35,914 nucleotides of DNA from Candidatus Woesearchaeota archaeon (GTDB lineage: Archaea; Nanobdellota; Nanobdellia; Woesearchaeales; WJIZ01), in assembly GCA_018221205.1 (NCBI GenBank), contig JAAOYF010000049.1, positions 1 to 35,914 on the forward strand, given 5' to 3'. A program made the translations under genes and the position numbers. The notes below the pieces were generated by a model, which saw only the letters and a program-made list of their open reading frames with translations, was not told the DNA's origin and did no database searches. Positions 114-12,334 of the stretch are shown in pieces; within the stretch, counting starts at the first letter, position 1, and every line of letters starts with the position of its first letter.

Positions 114-135
114 ACACCATCATTTCCTTTGGAAA
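114..135 (-). promoter_or_regulatory. ORB-like origin recognition box 1
   Basis: On the - strand this reads TTTCCAAAGGAAA, then TGAT, then GGTGT. It matches the best site of the window (11419-11440) at about 17 of 22 positions, with the same spacing between dyad core and G-rich tail. The tail is degenerate (GGTGT instead of GGGGG). It points away from the AT-rich segment. Likely bound by the Orc1/Cdc6 encoded at 315-1511. Confidence 0.6.
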
Positions 136-220
136 ATAAATACAAGAAAAAACACTTCTTTTATTTACTTTCTATATAGAAAATAATAAAATAACATATA
201 ACATATAACATAACAACACA

Positions 221-242
221 CTTCCATAAGAAATCAAGGGGT
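221..242 (+). promoter_or_regulatory. ORB-like origin recognition box 2
   Basis: On the + strand it reads CTTCCATAAGAAA, then TCAA, then GGGGT. The G-string is intact, the second half of the dyad is degenerate, and the spacing equals that of the other two sites; it matches the best site at about 16 of 22 positions. It is inverted relative to box 1 across the AT-rich segment. Confidence 0.6.
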
Positions 243-314: not shown

Positions 315-1511
315 ATGACCCTCTCTAAGTTTTTTGGTGACTATCTAAAAAAAGAGCCCCTTTTCCTCAATAAAACAGTCTTCCAAGGCGCTTATCTACC
401 TGAAACAATCCCTCATAGGGATGAACAGATCAACCAAATAGCAAAGATTCTTGCTCCTTTATTGAGGGGGGACAAGCCTTCAAATATCTTCATCTATGGT
501 AAGACAGGGACTGGAAAGACTATGAGTATGAAATACGTCGTCAAGAGCATGAAAGACGCACTGAAAGACAATGCCATTAAATTCATCTATGTGAATTGCA
601 AGCTCAAAAGGGTAGCTGATACAGAATATCGATTGATGGCGCAGCTAGCAAGAGAATTCGGGAAAGAGATACCTTCAACAGGGCTGCCGACAGACGAAGT
701 CTATAAGATACTCTTCAACGCGATTGAAAAAGAATCTAAACCCCTTTTGATTGTCTTGGATGAAATAGATCAATTAGTAAGAAAGACAGGTGATACAGTC
801 CTTTATAATCTGACAAGGTGCAACGAAGAACTCAAAAACGCACATATAACTATTGTAGGGCTGTCGAATGATATGGTATTCATCGATAATATTGACCCAA
901 GAGCAAAATCCTCATTATCAGAAGAAGAACTTATCTTTCCACCTTACAATGCTATCCAGATACAAGACATCTTAAAGCAAAGAGTGAAGATCGCTTTCAA
1001 AAAAAACACCCTGGATCCGGGAACAATAGAGAAATGTGCTGCGTATTCAGCAAGAGAGCATGGTGATGCAAGACGGGCATTAGAGCTATTGAGGGTTGCA
1101 GGAGAGCTGGCAGAGAGAGATGCTAAAGAGAATATCACGATTGATTACATAGACAAAGCAGAAGAAAAGATAGAGCGGGACCGATTACTGGACATCACCT
1201 CAACACAACCAAAACAGAGCCAATGCATACTCTATTCAATCATCGCGTTAGCAACAAATAAAAAAGGAAACATATTCACTGGTGAAATATATGAGCACTA
1301 CAAATCTCTCTGTAAAAAGACATCCCTGAGGCCGCTCACCCAAAGAAGGATTTCAGATGTCCTGGCTGAGCTGGATATGCTCGGCATCATAAACGCAAAG
1401 ATAATCTCAAAAGGCCGTTATGGCCGCTCAAGAGAAGTCTCATTGGCCGTTCCAAATTCATCCATCACCAACATAAAGAAAACGTTGGAGGAAGAACTAG
1501 CTTTAACCTGA
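315..1511 (+). CDS. cdc6: Orc1/Cdc6 replication initiator
   Basis: Origin-binding AAA+ ATPase that recognises ORB sites and loads the MCM helicase. The 398-aa length is normal for the family. The P-loop GKTGTGKT is at residues 62-69 and the Walker B LLIVLDEID at about 144-152. The middle holds the AAA+ lid, including the HGDARRALELLR sensor-2 segment. The last 100 residues form the winged-helix DNA-binding domain. The ATG at 315 fits a TATA box 26 nt upstream. It leads an apparent operon with both PolD subunits (22 nt to the next start) and sits directly beside the predicted origin, an arrangement also known in Thermococcales. Nothing is missing. Confidence 0.97.
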   Translation: MTLSKFFGDYLKKEPLFLNKTVFQGAYLPETIPHRDEQINQIAKILAPLLRGDKPSNIFIYGKTGTGKTMSMKYVVKSMKDALKDNAIKFIYVNCKLKRVADTEYRLMAQLAREFGKEIPSTGLPTDEVYKILFNAIEKESKPLLIVLDEIDQLVRKTGDTVLYNLTRCNEELKNAHITIVGLSNDMVFIDNIDPRAKSSLSEEELIFPPYNAIQIQDILKQRVKIAFKKNTLDPGTIEKCAAYSAREHGDARRALELLRVAGELAERDAKENITIDYIDKAEEKIERDRLLDITSTQPKQSQCILYSIIALATNKKGNIFTGEIYEHYKSLCKKTSLRPLTQRRISDVLAELDMLGIINAKIISKGRYGRSREVSLAVPNSSITNIKKTLEEELALT

Positions 1512-7262: not shown

Positions 7263-8123
7263 ATGGTCTTAGAATCTTTATTATTTCCCATGAAGGCAGA
7301 GAAGAAGCCTTGGGAGATGTTCTTCATCGGATTATTATATAGCACAGTGGGTATCTTTCTTGCATTATGGATATTTGAGAGGCAATCAAGTTTTGTCATG
7401 GTCTTTTTCATTGTGCTTGCCTGTGTACCTATTGTCTACAATACCTTGAAATGGGAAGAGTCAAAGGACCTGGAACTGGATTCTCCGAAAAAGATCCTCA
7501 AGGAGCATAATAAGGCGATTATGGTGCTGTCGTTTCTCTTCTTAGGGATAATAGTATCAGGAGTCATATGGTATGTCTTCCTACCGGCGCAGAAGACAGG
7601 CTTTCTCTTCGAGCAGCAGATATCAACAATCGCAGAGATCAACAATAAAGTCTCGCCCGATCCAACAGGTCTCGCAACATCATCTTCCTTATTCTTCAGG
7701 ATATTCTTCAACAACATCAAAGTGCTCATCTTCTGCATCCTCTTCGCCTTCATCTATGGTGCAGGCGCAGTGTTCATCCTGACGTGGAACGCGACAGTCA
7801 TATCGGCAGCAGTAGGGAATTTTATCCGCTCAAAGCTAGCACCATTGGCAGGCCTTTCGGCAGTCGGCAAAGCGACCGGTTATTTTACATTGGTCTCAGC
7901 AGGATTTTTGAGATACGCTATCCACGGCATTCCAGAGATCTTATCTTATTTCTATGGCGGCATTGCAGGAGGCATCATCTCAGTCGCGATAATAAAGAAC
8001 CATTTTGCGACAGAGAAATCCGCAGATATTCTCTTTGATGTCGGAGAATTATTATTGATCGCTGTAGGATTTGTCTTTATTGGTGCGATCTTAGAGGTAT
8101 TTGTCACTCCATTATTATTCTAG
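7263..8123 (+). CDS. SpoIIM/DUF95-family integral membrane protein
   Basis: A 286-aa polytopic protein resembling the stage II sporulation protein M (DUF95) family that is common in archaea. The name reflects homology to a bacterial sporulation protein; the archaeal function is unknown. Hydrophobic segments lie at about 21-38, 43-60, 90-109, 150-175, 205-235 and 262-285. The segment HGIPEIL in the second half is typical of the family. TATA spacing supports the ATG at 7263. The 3' end overlaps the convergent OB-fold gene by 9 nt. No neighbour suggests a specific role. Confidence 0.78.
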   Translation: MVLESLLFPMKAEKKPWEMFFIGLLYSTVGIFLALWIFERQSSFVMVFFIVLACVPIVYNTLKWEESKDLELDSPKKILKEHNKAIMVLSFLFLGIIVSGVIWYVFLPAQKTGFLFEQQISTIAEINNKVSPDPTGLATSSSLFFRIFFNNIKVLIFCILFAFIYGAGAVFILTWNATVISAAVGNFIRSKLAPLAGLSAVGKATGYFTLVSAGFLRYAIHGIPEILSYFYGGIAGGIISVAIIKNHFATEKSADILFDVGELLLIAVGFVFIGAILEVFVTPLLF

Positions 8124-8720
8124 AACTTTTACTTTGCCGGGCATGTTCTCAAATAAGTCTCCCTCTTTCAGCAAAGTCTCGATCTCTTTCTCAGAATCAG
8201 GGAATTTCTTGATGATCTCTTCAACAGCAACACCCTTTCCTTTGTCAATGCTTTTGATATAACTGAGAAGACCTTTATCATCAGAGACAACATCTTCGAC
8301 CTCTATTTTCTCAGGCAGTACAATAGACTTCGTCTCTAACTTCCTTACTCTCATCCACTTCTCAGAGCTCTTCCTGAATATCTCAGGGACGATATACCGT
8401 TCATTGTTGAACTCCCGTGGCTTGCCGATGACCATCAGAATATCTCCGATCTGGATATCTTCAACACGCTGCTCAAAGACCCTGGCAGAGATTCTTCCCG
8501 TACCATCATCAATCATGAAAGAATCATCACTCTTAGCAACAACAACCCCGATAAGATTCACCCGACTTACTTGCATCTCGCCAAAGTTCAGATAATTAGG
8601 AGAGAACTCACCCTCTGTCCGGATATATTCACTCTCAAGAATACTCTTGACAGGCACTTTATAGGCCGTAGCTCTCTTAAATCCTACTGATGAAGCCCCT
8701 TCTTGGCTCAAAGATATCAC
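8115..8720 (-). CDS. RPA32-like OB-fold single-stranded DNA-binding protein
   Basis: Probable subunit of an archaeal RPA complex. Over up to 201 aa it shows an N-terminal segment (VPVKSILESEYIRTEGEF, then PNYL) very like that of Pyrococcus RPA32. An OB fold follows (about 50-115, with FMIDDGTGRISARVF), then a C-terminal winged-helix-like region (about 135-200). The start is uncertain: GTG at 8720 overlaps the end of mcm by 44 nt, and a TTG at 8711 is an alternative. A later start would cut into the conserved N-terminus. Placement directly behind MCM supports a role in replication or repair. The exact RPA architecture of this organism cannot be seen here. Confidence 0.82.
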   Translation of the reverse strand: MISLSQEGASSVGFKRATAYKVPVKSILESEYIRTEGEFSPNYLNFGEMQVSRVNLIGVVVAKSDDSFMIDDGTGRISARVFEQRVEDIQIGDILMVIGKPREFNNERYIVPEIFRKSSEKWMRVRKLETKSIVLPEKIEVEDVVSDDKGLLSYIKSIDKGKGVAVEEIIKKFPDSEKEIETLLKEGDLFENMPGKVKVLE

Positions 8721-10692
8721 CGGCGCGTTTTAATTTCTGGATCGTCTCTTCAAAGATACTTTCTTCAATCCCTCTCTCTTTTGCCATGTCAGAAAGGTCA
8801 TCTAATGAGATGGTCTTTCCAGATTTTTTCTCTAGATCAACAATCATCTCTTTGATAGTTGAGATATGGCTTCTTTCAGAAGCAGTGATGCCTGTCGAGA
8901 TCCTGTCGATATCGATCTTTCCAGTCTCCGGATCCATACCGACTTGTGCTAGACAATAATGCATCAGCTCAACAGCCTTCTTTGCATCTTTTCTTTCGAC
9001 AATCTGGCTTAATCGTAATCGTGCAGTCGCTTCAGCCATCCTGATGAGTGCCTCTAACTGCCGGGCCGAGATAGGGATGGCCTTGACTTCTTCATCTCCA
9101 CCGCTTCCCCTCATCTTAAGATAATACTTCTTGACTTCATCAACAGCAGCATCACTTAATTTCGGAAAGATTCTTTGGCGGGCATAAGAAAAATACTTCC
9201 GTAGCAGATTTCCATCAATCTCCGGAGTGACCATCTCAGGGCTTTGATGGATATTCAGCATAAACGATGCAATCTTGTCATCCTTGACAGCATCAGGCAG
9301 ATCCCTGATAGGAAAGATCAGGTCAAAACGATTGATCAATGTTGAAGGCAGTTCTATCTGTTTGGGGATGATCTCATACGGATCAAATCTGCCGAATTTA
9401 GGATTGGCAGCAGCTAGGACAGTAGTCTCACTCCTTAAGGTAGCTTGGATATTTGCCTTTGAGATCGTAACAGTCTGCCCTTCTAAAGCCTCATGCATCG
9501 CATCCCTGTCCTCAGTGCTCATCTTATCCAGCTCATCAATGCAGCATACTCCTCTATTGGCGAGAACCAAGGCACCTGCCTCCAGGCTCCAGCCAGACAT
9601 GAACTCATCTTTGACAACAGCAGCAGTCAATCCTGCACCACTAGCACCTTTTCCAGAGACAAATCTCCCTTTAGGGGCGACTTTAGAGATTCTTTTCAAG
9701 ATTTGGGATTTACCCGCACCAGGATCGCCGATGAGCAGCACATGGATATCCCCCCGAGTTACAGAAGAATCTTCCCTTACTTTCCTCACTCCACCAGCCA
9801 TCTGTACCAAGACAGCTTCCTTGATCATCTCATGGCCATAGATGCTCGGCACAACAGAATTGACCAATTTCTCATGCAGTTTAGGATCTTGAACTAAATC
9901 TAGAATCTCCTGCTCCTCCTCTGAGGTGATCTCAAGAGAAGAGAAATCCTCTTCAACGGCTTCGACAAAATTAGCCTCGATCATCAGTTCAAACCGGGTG
10001 CTTTTGCCTCCATCTTTGGCAAGGATAGGCACTTCCTTTAAGATGCCCATTACTCTGATTCCGCTTCCAGGATTTGTCCTTTTTTCAGTGATAGGACTCA
10101 CCAGATCATTTTTCAATAGAAGATTCATTCGTTTAGGCTGCTCTCCCCCTTCTAAATCAGTAGTAGATTCCTCTAGGACAATGCCCTGTGCATCGACCAT
10201 CTCCTTATCCAGTAGCCTAAACTTTCCCTTTCTTCCGCAGCCACACCTGGTAGGCTCTCGGAATTTAGTTTCCAGCTGCAGCACATTAAGGACATTCCCG
10301 CAGCTAGGACATTCGAATTTCGCAGAAATAACCTGCGGTCTGACATCACTTTTCTGCCGAACCGTTCCCTCGATAAATAATATCTTGTTCAGATGTCTTG
10401 CTCTGATATTTCTTATCATGATCTTATGGCCTTCAGGAAGGTTGAAGAAACGGGCCTTGAATCCTCTCACCTCTCCGAGAGTATCAAATTGTTCGATAGC
10501 GATCTCAGCAGCCTTGATGGTCTCTTCAGGCTGCTCAAGGATCTCCTCTGCAAGATCTGGCTCGAATTTGATCAGTTCAGAAAAATCTATCAACAAAAAT
10601 TTCTCATCCTTCTTTATCCTCTCGATGAGCTGCTCCTTGCAGCTACCATCGATGAATTCACTGAATTTTTGGATTTGGTCTTGGACTTCCAT
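8677..10692 (-). CDS. mcm: Replicative helicase MCM
   Basis: Hexameric 3'-5' DNA helicase of the replication fork. At 671 aa it is full length. The N-terminal domain carries a zinc site (C128, C131, C150, C152). The AAA+ domain has Walker A GDPGAGKS (322-329), Walker B CIDELDKM (about 384-391), sensor 1 LAAANP and the arginine finger in NRFDLIF (R455). The C-terminal winged helix covers about the last 80 residues. No intein or frameshift is present. It follows TBP by 50 nt, after a T8 run, and overlaps the RPA32-like gene downstream, which suggests co-transcription of helicase and single-strand binding protein. Confidence 0.97.
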   Translation of the reverse strand: MEVQDQIQKFSEFIDGSCKEQLIERIKKDEKFLLIDFSELIKFEPDLAEEILEQPEETIKAAEIAIEQFDTLGEVRGFKARFFNLPEGHKIMIRNIRARHLNKILFIEGTVRQKSDVRPQVISAKFECPSCGNVLNVLQLETKFREPTRCGCGRKGKFRLLDKEMVDAQGIVLEESTTDLEGGEQPKRMNLLLKNDLVSPITEKRTNPGSGIRVMGILKEVPILAKDGGKSTRFELMIEANFVEAVEEDFSSLEITSEEEQEILDLVQDPKLHEKLVNSVVPSIYGHEMIKEAVLVQMAGGVRKVREDSSVTRGDIHVLLIGDPGAGKSQILKRISKVAPKGRFVSGKGASGAGLTAAVVKDEFMSGWSLEAGALVLANRGVCCIDELDKMSTEDRDAMHEALEGQTVTISKANIQATLRSETTVLAAANPKFGRFDPYEIIPKQIELPSTLINRFDLIFPIRDLPDAVKDDKIASFMLNIHQSPEMVTPEIDGNLLRKYFSYARQRIFPKLSDAAVDEVKKYYLKMRGSGGDEEVKAIPISARQLEALIRMAEATARLRLSQIVERKDAKKAVELMHYCLAQVGMDPETGKIDIDRISTGITASERSHISTIKEMIVDLEKKSGKTISLDDLSDMAKERGIEESIFEETIQKLKRAGDIFEPRRGFISRI

Positions 10693-10742: not shown

Positions 10743-11306
10743 TCACTTAAGTTTCTTCAGGTTGACAACAAGCATATCAACTGCTTGATACACTTCTTCC
10801 TCGCTCTTCGTTCCTGTGCAGACAATCTTTCCGTTGCTGAACAAGAGGAAGGTTGCTTTCGCTTCCCTTAGCTTATACACCAGTCCTGGGAATTGCTCAG
10901 GCTCATACTCGGTGTTTTCAAGCTTCATAGCAAGTGTGTTGAGGTTTAGCACCATGCCTACACTGCCAGATGCAACAATGTTCTGGATATTCAGTTCCGG
11001 CTTGATCTTGATCTTGATGTTTATCTTCTCCAGGCTTTTGATGATCTTCTTCAAAGACTCCTCTACTTCTCGCAAGGTCCTTGCCCCAGTGCACACGACC
11101 TTTCCTGAACTGAAGATCAATGCGCTTGTCTTAGGTTCCTTGATCCTGATGACCAAACCAGGGAACTGCTCTGGGTTATACTCAGTATTGCTTAAAGTTG
11201 CAGCCATCTTCTCTAGTGGAATATCATGCTCTAGGCTGGTAGAAACAACAATGTTGACTATCTTAATATCTTTCTTCTCCTTGGATTTTGCCTTTTTCTT
11301 TGCCAT
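10743..11306 (-). CDS. tbp: TATA-binding protein
   Basis: Basal transcription factor that binds TATA boxes and recruits TFB. The saddle fold is visible as a direct internal duplication: the first half contains NTEYNPEQFPGLVIRI...GKVVCTG and the second NTEYEPEQFPGLVYKL...GKIVCTG. A frame opens at 11348, but the ATG at 11306 has a GGAGGT ribosome binding site 6 nt upstream and gives MAKKKAKSKEKK, a lysine-rich N-terminal extension, for 187 aa. The leader is about 25 nt if the TATA box at 11354-11361 is used. It shares its upstream region with the TrmB-like gene and an ORB site. Confidence 0.97.
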   Translation of the reverse strand: MAKKKAKSKEKKDIKIVNIVVSTSLEHDIPLEKMAATLSNTEYNPEQFPGLVIRIKEPKTSALIFSSGKVVCTGARTLREVEESLKKIIKSLEKINIKIKIKPELNIQNIVASGSVGMVLNLNTLAMKLENTEYEPEQFPGLVYKLREAKATFLLFSNGKIVCTGTKSEEEVYQAVDMLVVNLKKLK

Positions 11307-11350: not shown

Positions 11351-11400
11351 TCCATTTATAAACGCGCCCGCCTTTATAAATACTTCTCTTTATAAATGGA
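11351..11400. repeat. 12-bp inverted repeat containing TATA boxes upstream of tbp
   Basis: TCCATTTATAAA (11351-11362) is repeated exactly inverted at 11389-11400, with a third TTTATAAA at 11373-11380. These are TATA elements for tbp and possibly the divergent gene. The symmetry could also make an operator, for instance for TBP autoregulation, which is inference. Confidence 0.5.
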
Positions 11401-11418
11401 GATATTCCACCTTATAAA

Positions 11419-11440
11419 CCCCCATGATTTCCACTGGAAA
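11419..11440 (-). promoter_or_regulatory. Full ORB-like site between tbp and the TrmB-like gene
   Basis: The perfect dyad TTTCCA(G/C)TGGAAA at 11428-11440 is joined on the - strand by TCAT to GGGGG (11423-11419). This is the canonical archaeal ORB layout (dyad core, about four bases, G-string), and the match is better than those at the cdc6 origin. It probably binds Orc1/Cdc6. Whether it acts in replication or in control of tbp is not decided by the sequence. Confidence 0.6.
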
Positions 11441-11474: not shown

Positions 11475-11486
11475 GCTTTATAAAGC
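11475..11486 (+). promoter_or_regulatory. TATA box of the TrmB-like gene
   Basis: The palindrome GCTTTATAAAGC is centred about 57 nt before the chosen ATG at 11537. Transcription would start near 11506 and leave a leader of about 30 nt containing the GGAGG ribosome binding site at 11523-11527. Confidence 0.5.
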
Positions 11487-11536
11487 ACTTTGTATTCTGA
11501 ACAGTATGAAAAGGGGTGCTGTGGAGGCTTGAAAAG

Positions 11537-12334
11537 ATGATTGTACAAAAGAATTTCCTATCTAAACTGCGTGAATTCGGCCTGAATACCTACGAATCGA
11601 AGTTGTGGACAGCGCTCTTATCAAGAGGCTCCTCAACAGCCGGTGAATTATCTGATATCGCTAACGTACCGAGAAGCCGTACCTATGATGTTCTAGAGTC
11701 TTTAGAAAGAAAAGGATTCATCATAAGAAAATTAGGCAAGCCGATAAAGTATATTGCTGTCGAACCTACAGAGGTCCTTGATAGGGTCAAAGATAAAGTA
11801 AGCAAAGAGACCGATTCAAGGATGAAGATGATCGAAGAGCTGAGAGACTCTGATATTCTCGAAGAGCTTTCATTGCTCCACTCTCAAGGCATTGAATTGG
11901 TAGATCCTACAGAATTGACTGGTTCAATAACAGGCAGAGATAACTTACATAATCATCTTGAGTCAAGATTAGCAAAAGCTGAGACAACTGTCTGCATGCT
12001 CACAACCCCAGAGGCTTTGAAAAGAAAACAGGAATTCATGATCCCTATGCTGAAGAGGTTAAAAGACAAAAACGTCTCAGTGAAGATCGCAACACAGATG
12101 ACAAAAGACAACAGAGCATTGATACAGGAATATCAAAGATATGCAGAAGTCAAGCATACTCAGATCAGAGGAAGATTCACCATAATCAATTCCTCAGAAG
12201 TCCTCTTCATGTTGCTAGATGATAAGATTGTCCATCCAGCATATGACATGGCGATCTGGGCTAACAGCAAATTCTTCGCAGCAACCCTAGAAGGCATCTT
12301 CAATGAGAAGTGGAATGGTATGAAATCGGTTTAG
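11537..12334 (+). CDS. TrmB-family transcriptional regulator
   Basis: A 265-aa sugar- or metabolite-responsive type of archaeal regulator. The N-terminal winged helix (about 5-75) contains GLNTYESKLWTALLSRG and the recognition segment VPRSRTYDVLESLERKGF, typical of TrmB proteins. The C-terminal part resembles a PLD-like effector domain. The frame opens with GTG at 11516, but the ATG at 11537 has GGAGG nine nt upstream and starts MIVQKNFLSKLREFG like its relatives. The gene is alone, divergent from tbp, so its targets cannot be inferred; it may be a general regulator of central genes. An ORB-like site lies about 100 nt upstream. Confidence 0.88.
   Translation: MIVQKNFLSKLREFGLNTYESKLWTALLSRGSSTAGELSDIANVPRSRTYDVLESLERKGFIIRKLGKPIKYIAVEPTEVLDRVKDKVSKETDSRMKMIEELRDSDILEELSLLHSQGIELVDPTELTGSITGRDNLHNHLESRLAKAETTVCMLTTPEALKRKQEFMIPMLKRLKDKNVSVKIATQMTKDNRALIQEYQRYAEVKHTQIRGRFTIINSSEVLFMLLDDKIVHPAYDMAIWANSKFFAATLEGIFNEKWNGMKSV

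Follow-up and report, generated by a model that had tools for sequence, protein, structure and literature searches.

How archaea tie the supply of their replication proteins to the initiation of replication is largely an open question. It is raised here by a motif of the replication origin, the origin recognition box (ORB), that in many very small, uncultured archaea also lies in the promoter of the genes for TATA-binding protein (tbp) and the replicative helicase (mcm). Sequence comparison of this promoter suggests that the replication initiator may also control expression of tbp and mcm. The window (the whole stretch of DNA analysed, 35,914 nucleotides) is contig C31 of a 1.28-Mb genome in 74 contigs, whose relatives are annotated as Woesearchaeota/Nanoarchaeota.

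The tbp-mcm promoter and the origin

We identified the following features around the site (strand in brackets):

8115..8720 (-): OB-fold protein (Pfam OB-fold), overlapping the end of mcm and likely in the same operon
8677..10692 (-): mcm, replicative helicase, about 50 bp downstream of tbp on the same strand (Pfam MCM, E=6e-89)
10743..11306 (-): tbp, TATA-binding protein, first gene of the operon (Pfam TBP, E=2.6e-62)
11355..11362 (-): further TATA-like box TTTATAAA, 56 nt after the G-tract
11373..11380 (-): conserved TATA box TTTATAAA in the context AGTATTTATAAA, 38 nt after the G-tract, a distance class that relatives share
11389..11396 (-): upstream TATA-like box TTTATAAA, 22 nt after the G-tract and 16 bp from the conserved TATA
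11411..11418 (-): TTTATAAG, immediately next to the G-tract; 7 of 7 relatives of family f1 keep its first letters, TTTA
11419..11440 (-): ORB of the tbp-mcm promoter, TTTCCAGTGGAAATCATGGGGG, a dyad, TCAT and a G-tract toward tbp (sequence and scans)
11477..11484 (+): TATA-like box of the TrmB-like gene (sequence)
11516..12334 (+): TrmB-like regulator, divergent neighbour, whose start may be the ATG at 11538 (Pfam TrmB, E=5.6e-21)

The site consists of perfect 6-bp dyad arms, TTTCCA and TGGAAA, with one G between them, followed by TCAT and then GGGGG. With the G-tract at the canonical distance of 4-5 nt from the dyad TTCCANNGGAAA, it is a complete archaeal ORB. It is the sole match in the window at up to three mismatches, and itself has none (0.08 matches expected). 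The genome scan proposed in a first-pass annotation of this DNA found three ORBs in all, the tbp ORB and two at oriC: with one mismatch allowed, a relaxed ORB pattern matched the 1.28-Mb genome at 222-241 (+), 115-134 (-) and 11420-11439 (-), all inside this window, and its reversed control gave no match in the whole genome. A matrix built solely from non-tbp sites of other genomes scores the tbp ORB at 28.2 bits, higher than the two ORBs at oriC, and the next-best site in the window reaches 8.5 bits. The site at 11419-11440 is a genuine ORB motif. A one-mismatch match elsewhere in the genome (C28:12017) was rejected as chance; it lies among overlapping ORFs with no related gene, and was gone with a better pattern.

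The first-pass annotation had called the site the best ORB of the window, with a perfect dyad and GGGGG at canonical spacing, and placed it between tbp and a TrmB-like gene, 11 kb from the origin. The scores, the sequence and the Pfam matches to tbp, mcm and the TrmB-like gene agree with this description, and the distance to the ORB pair on the cdc6 side is about 11.2 kb. The features on that side are:

115..134 (-): oriC ORB, left arm, TTCCAAAGGAAATGATGGTG, 23.9 bits (matrix and genome scan)
135..221 (no strand): AT-rich spacer between the inverted ORBs, 87 bp, 83% AT, a candidate unwinding element
222..241 (+): oriC ORB, right arm, TTCCATAAGAAATCAAGGGG, 25.8 bits (matrix and genome scan)
315..1511 (+): orc1/cdc6, presumed reader of all three ORBs (Pfam Cdc6_C, Cdc6_lid)

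Outward-facing inverted ORBs around an AT-rich spacer are the usual layout of an archaeal origin. This layout is present upstream of cdc6, and region 115-241 is likely the oriC of this genome. Minus-plus inverted ORBs also occur in at least 16 of the 38 cdc6 upstream regions of the order. The two sites had been described beforehand as poorer copies of the tbp site. Their scores are indeed lower, but they are not merely poor, as they form an inverted pair of the oriC type. The contig starts at base 1, and further oriC ORBs to the left are possible.

Among solved structures, the Cdc6 protein of the window is closest to Sulfolobus Orc1-1 (2qby_A, E=1e-107) and to Aeropyrum ORC1 (2v1u_A, E=4e-96); both align with it along its full length and share the winged-helix wing GRYG. 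In the region of the ORB-contacting arginines, the helix arginines QRR and the wing GRYG align as motifs, with one wing R replaced by K. Two PolD subunits are also encoded in the window (Pfam). Several ORB-bearing genomes, G030, G056 and G071 among them, give only weak Cdc6 matches, a point against Orc1 as the reader of the tbp ORB; these are MAGs, and the gene may be missing from them.

Conservation, direction and spacing in the order

The order was sampled with 145 genomes, evenly but not exhaustively, and the MAGs among them are fragmentary. The strict ORB pattern YTCCANNGGAAAYNNNGGGG matched 143 sites in 90 of these genomes, and the reversed control matched none. Assigned by the nearest tbp or cdc6 gene, 55 sites lie upstream of tbp (54 of them in the sense of tbp), 39 upstream of cdc6 and 49 elsewhere. 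Three kinds of locus (cdc6, tbp-mcm and a family of coiled-coil/helix-turn-helix genes described below) hold 126 of the 143 sites (88%).

A matrix trained without tbp sites, with thresholds set from shuffles, detected an ORB at 12 bits or more in 81 of 122 distinct tbp upstream regions, compared with 4 of 1220 shuffled regions. The G-tract is directed toward tbp in 80 of the 81, and some tbp loci carry two direct ORBs. About a third of the tbp upstream regions in the order have no detectable ORB, so the link between ORB and tbp is not essential. In the window's own family, f1, the ORB is kept in 7 of 7 relatives, and the conserved blocks of the alignment are the ORB and the TATA boxes. The first-pass annotation had named two findings that would speak against a role at this promoter, occurrence of the pattern at many unrelated promoters and lack of conservation upstream of tbp in close relatives; the counts above run contrary to both. 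No ORB was seen at tbp or mcm among 30 loci of the same class, outside the order, that were inspected for genes. Searches of the open-access literature turned up no earlier description of an ORB in the promoter of tbp or mcm.

The ORB also has a regular place with respect to the promoter. In relatives, a conserved TATA box in the context AAGTATTTATAAA follows 3' of the G-tract and is often preceded, at 16 bp, by a second TATA-like box. The distance from G-tract to TATA peaks at 38-39 and 52-53 nt: of the 55 regions where the TATA context was found, 16 have 37-39 nt, 26 have 52-53 nt and a few have about 116-139 nt, counts that depend on our own TATA pattern. Measured from the centre of the dyad, the distances peak at 53 and 67. 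Inspection of several longer-distance loci identified a second, weaker ORB-like copy in between. Spacing to TATA is required by a promoter element and not by an origin. Because direction (80:1) and quantised TATA distance are fixed across species, we read the tbp ORB as a promoter element. The tbp-trmB intergenic region gave no Rfam match for an RNA element.

Rearranged genomes identify the genes that the ORB accompanies. Among the 132 genomes in which mcm was located, 120 have tbp as the gene immediately before it on the same strand. In family f7 (G012, G094, G136), tbp is on another contig and mcm itself carries the ORB promoter, including a second, weaker ORB and the same TATA context as at tbp; the separation of tbp from mcm in this family was probably one event. 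In G092, the ORB is between tbp and mcm, 56 bp upstream of mcm. These mcm sites (f7 and G092) make up 4 of the 49 strict sites counted as elsewhere. In G077 and G085, cdc6 is on another contig, with none within about 30 kb downstream of tbp, and the tbp ORB is kept. Since the ORB stays with mcm in f7 and persists at tbp without linked cdc6, it belongs to the tbp-mcm operon, as an element of its promoter. In several relatives (G003, G048, G057, G066, G090 and G115 among them), the matches to mcm fall into pieces inside one open frame of about 1100 codons, the pattern that inteins in the helicase gene would give.

Possible roles of the tbp ORB

The motif is that of oriC, mcm is close by, the distance to the cdc6 origin is about 11 kb in most genomes, and two direct ORBs occur at some tbp loci. 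The site could therefore be a second replication origin or a helicase-loading site alongside the cdc6 origin, as the first-pass annotation had offered as one option. We consider this very unlikely. There is no inverted partner at tbp, where 80 of 81 ORBs have the same direction, as compared with the outward-facing pairs upstream of cdc6. AT content is 61% in the tbp-trmB intergenic region, which has no AT-rich unwinding zone, compared with 83% between the oriC ORBs. The fixed spacing to TATA also argues against an origin. Third-position GC skew was computed strand by strand for the genes of two genomes that have long contigs, and shows no inversion at tbp. In G019 it is below zero at both tbp and cdc6; in G044 it is likewise below zero at the two genes and switches sign near 150 kb. 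It does not invert at cdc6 either, which makes it weak evidence, and 40 skew samples from G123 gave no clear signal. Neither inverted ORBs around an AT-rich element nor a skew inversion was thus found at the tbp site. As a separate observation, G019:C2 and G044:C1 have strong skew with no inversion at the cdc6 ORB pair, and the dominant origin of these two genomes may not be at cdc6.

The tbp ORB might instead sequester Orc1 close to the origin, with its promoter location a secondary matter. A single high-scoring site close to oriC in most genomes would suit such titration, and a precedent is the negative ORB cluster downstream of Haloarcula oriC2 (PMC4010727). However, titration needs neither direction nor TATA spacing, both of which are conserved, and the ORB stays with tbp-mcm when cdc6 is unlinked; we regard titration as unlikely. 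Little probability is likewise left for ownership of the site by another DNA-binding protein with the same sequence specificity, for instance the TrmB-like neighbour or some further regulator. The site is in a divergent promoter between tbp and the TrmB-like gene, and dyad symmetry would suit a dimeric regulator. However, cdc6 has this motif too, with the same G-tract and spacing, and comparison with the window's protein identified no TrmB-like gene upstream of tbp in 70 relatives, among which the ORB persists. We therefore rejected the TrmB-like regulator as owner of the site and consider it probably an incidental neighbour. In these relatives tbp has upstream neighbours of various kinds and in either orientation, and the ORB accompanies both orientations. 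Chance resemblance or a frozen, functionless relic has nothing in its favour beyond the view from a single genome. It is hardly credible given 143 real matches against none in the control, the conservation, the 80:1 direction and the quantised spacing.

Thus, we infer that the Orc1/Cdc6 of the cell probably binds the tbp ORB and regulates the tbp-mcm operon. Coupling by Orc1 at this promoter was also the first reading of the site, and it is consistent with both the confinement of the motif to few kinds of locus and its conservation at tbp; the idea of an initiation or loading point, proposed with it, finds no support. In the mechanism that we propose, the Orc1/Cdc6 that marks the origin would bind the tbp ORB as a directional monomer, with its winged helix on the dyad and its initiator-specific motif on the G-tract. 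The G-tract would point to the promoter and stand about 38 nt before the conserved TATA, and bound Orc1 would modulate transcription of tbp, mcm and the OB-fold gene. Supply of helicase (and TBP) would then follow the amount or nucleotide state of the active initiator. The place of the ORB upstream of the conserved TATA favours activation over simple occlusion, although occlusion is also possible because the TTTATAAG box abuts the G-tract. If regulation by Orc1/Cdc6 is correct, an entire order of DPANN archaea uses an origin motif as a transcription element too.

Other ORB loci and comparison with known systems

Of the 49 strict sites elsewhere, 28 (at 23 loci) adjoin a gene for a protein with a coiled coil and a C-terminal helix-turn-helix (L102, L121, L180, L182-L184, L186, L188-L190, L193-L195, L197, L199-L201, L203-L206, L209, L213). 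The protein is 120-150 aa long, sometimes longer, with the helix-turn-helix consensus CSKATFYRYIxELK, and has no Pfam match above the cut-off; no member of the family was found in the window's genome at E<=1e-6. Each of the 23 loci carries two or more GTCTCA/TGAGAC words no further than about 200-250 bp from the ORB, as did 1.8% of shuffles and 0 of 19 tbp loci. The words flank the ORB on both sides and are usually arrayed at intervals of about 11 bp. In this the loci resemble iteron or partition-type loci, or autoregulated promoters, and they are possibly further origins. It is conceivable, if on balance doubtful, that in this order Orc1 governs, as master regulator, a small replication regulon recognised by its ORBs and comprising cdc6/oriC, tbp-mcm and the coiled-coil/helix-turn-helix locus. 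If so, a cell-cycle transcription circuit would be built from the origin motif.

ORBs were also seen in other settings. Genomes of family f92, from another order of the class (L298-L316), mostly have a single strict ORB each. It occupies a long intergenic region, as a rule flanked by a helix-turn-helix gene of about 90 aa and a convergent coiled-coil gene of about 205 aa. No cdc6 was found within 1.5 kb of these loci, and the ORB is a candidate origin away from cdc6. In family f91 (L292, L293), an ORB is located 171-185 bp upstream of an FtsZ-like gene (GVGGAGCNTITR motif) in the same sense, a possible link between initiator and cell division. In two related genomes of family f22 (L207, L208), the ORB is 82-97 bp upstream of a gene for a TYW1/Taw1-like radical-SAM wyosine enzyme. 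The ORB pattern alone offers a route to origins and initiator targets in uncultured genomes.

Archaeal ORBs are bound by Orc1/Cdc6, as at Sulfolobus oriC1, at Pyrococcus oriC and in the Aeropyrum ORC1-ORB structure (2v1u). The tbp site resembles them in its dyad and canonically spaced G-tract, in the presence of the motif at the genome's own oriC, and in the Orc1-1/ORC1-type protein encoded 11 kb away. Unlike origin ORBs, it is single, fixed in direction and at a fixed spacing to TATA, and is not part of a pair around an AT-rich zone. Bacterial DnaA is both initiator and transcription factor, with boxes in promoters, and is titrated by datA-type sites. Like DnaA boxes, the motif described here is an origin motif reused in promoters of replication genes. 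However, the initiator protein is unrelated, the conserved target is the tbp-mcm operon and the function is predicted; if the prediction holds, it would be a parallel to DnaA with different machinery.

In Thermococcales, ORB and mini-ORB repeats are found inside the DP1 gene (PMC2643942). These too are at a replication gene and outside the cdc6 upstream region, but lie within the gene, whereas the tbp ORB has the conserved direction and spacing of a promoter element. Sulfolobus Orc1-2 is a member of the Orc1 family that regulates transcription in the DNA-damage response; it is a non-initiator paralogue with the motif ANTTTC and without the ORB-contacting arginines (PMC9738581). The predicted system is similar in that an Orc1-family protein would act at promoters and change transcription. 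The precedent is indirect, as here the element is the origin motif itself and its presumed reader is the initiator.
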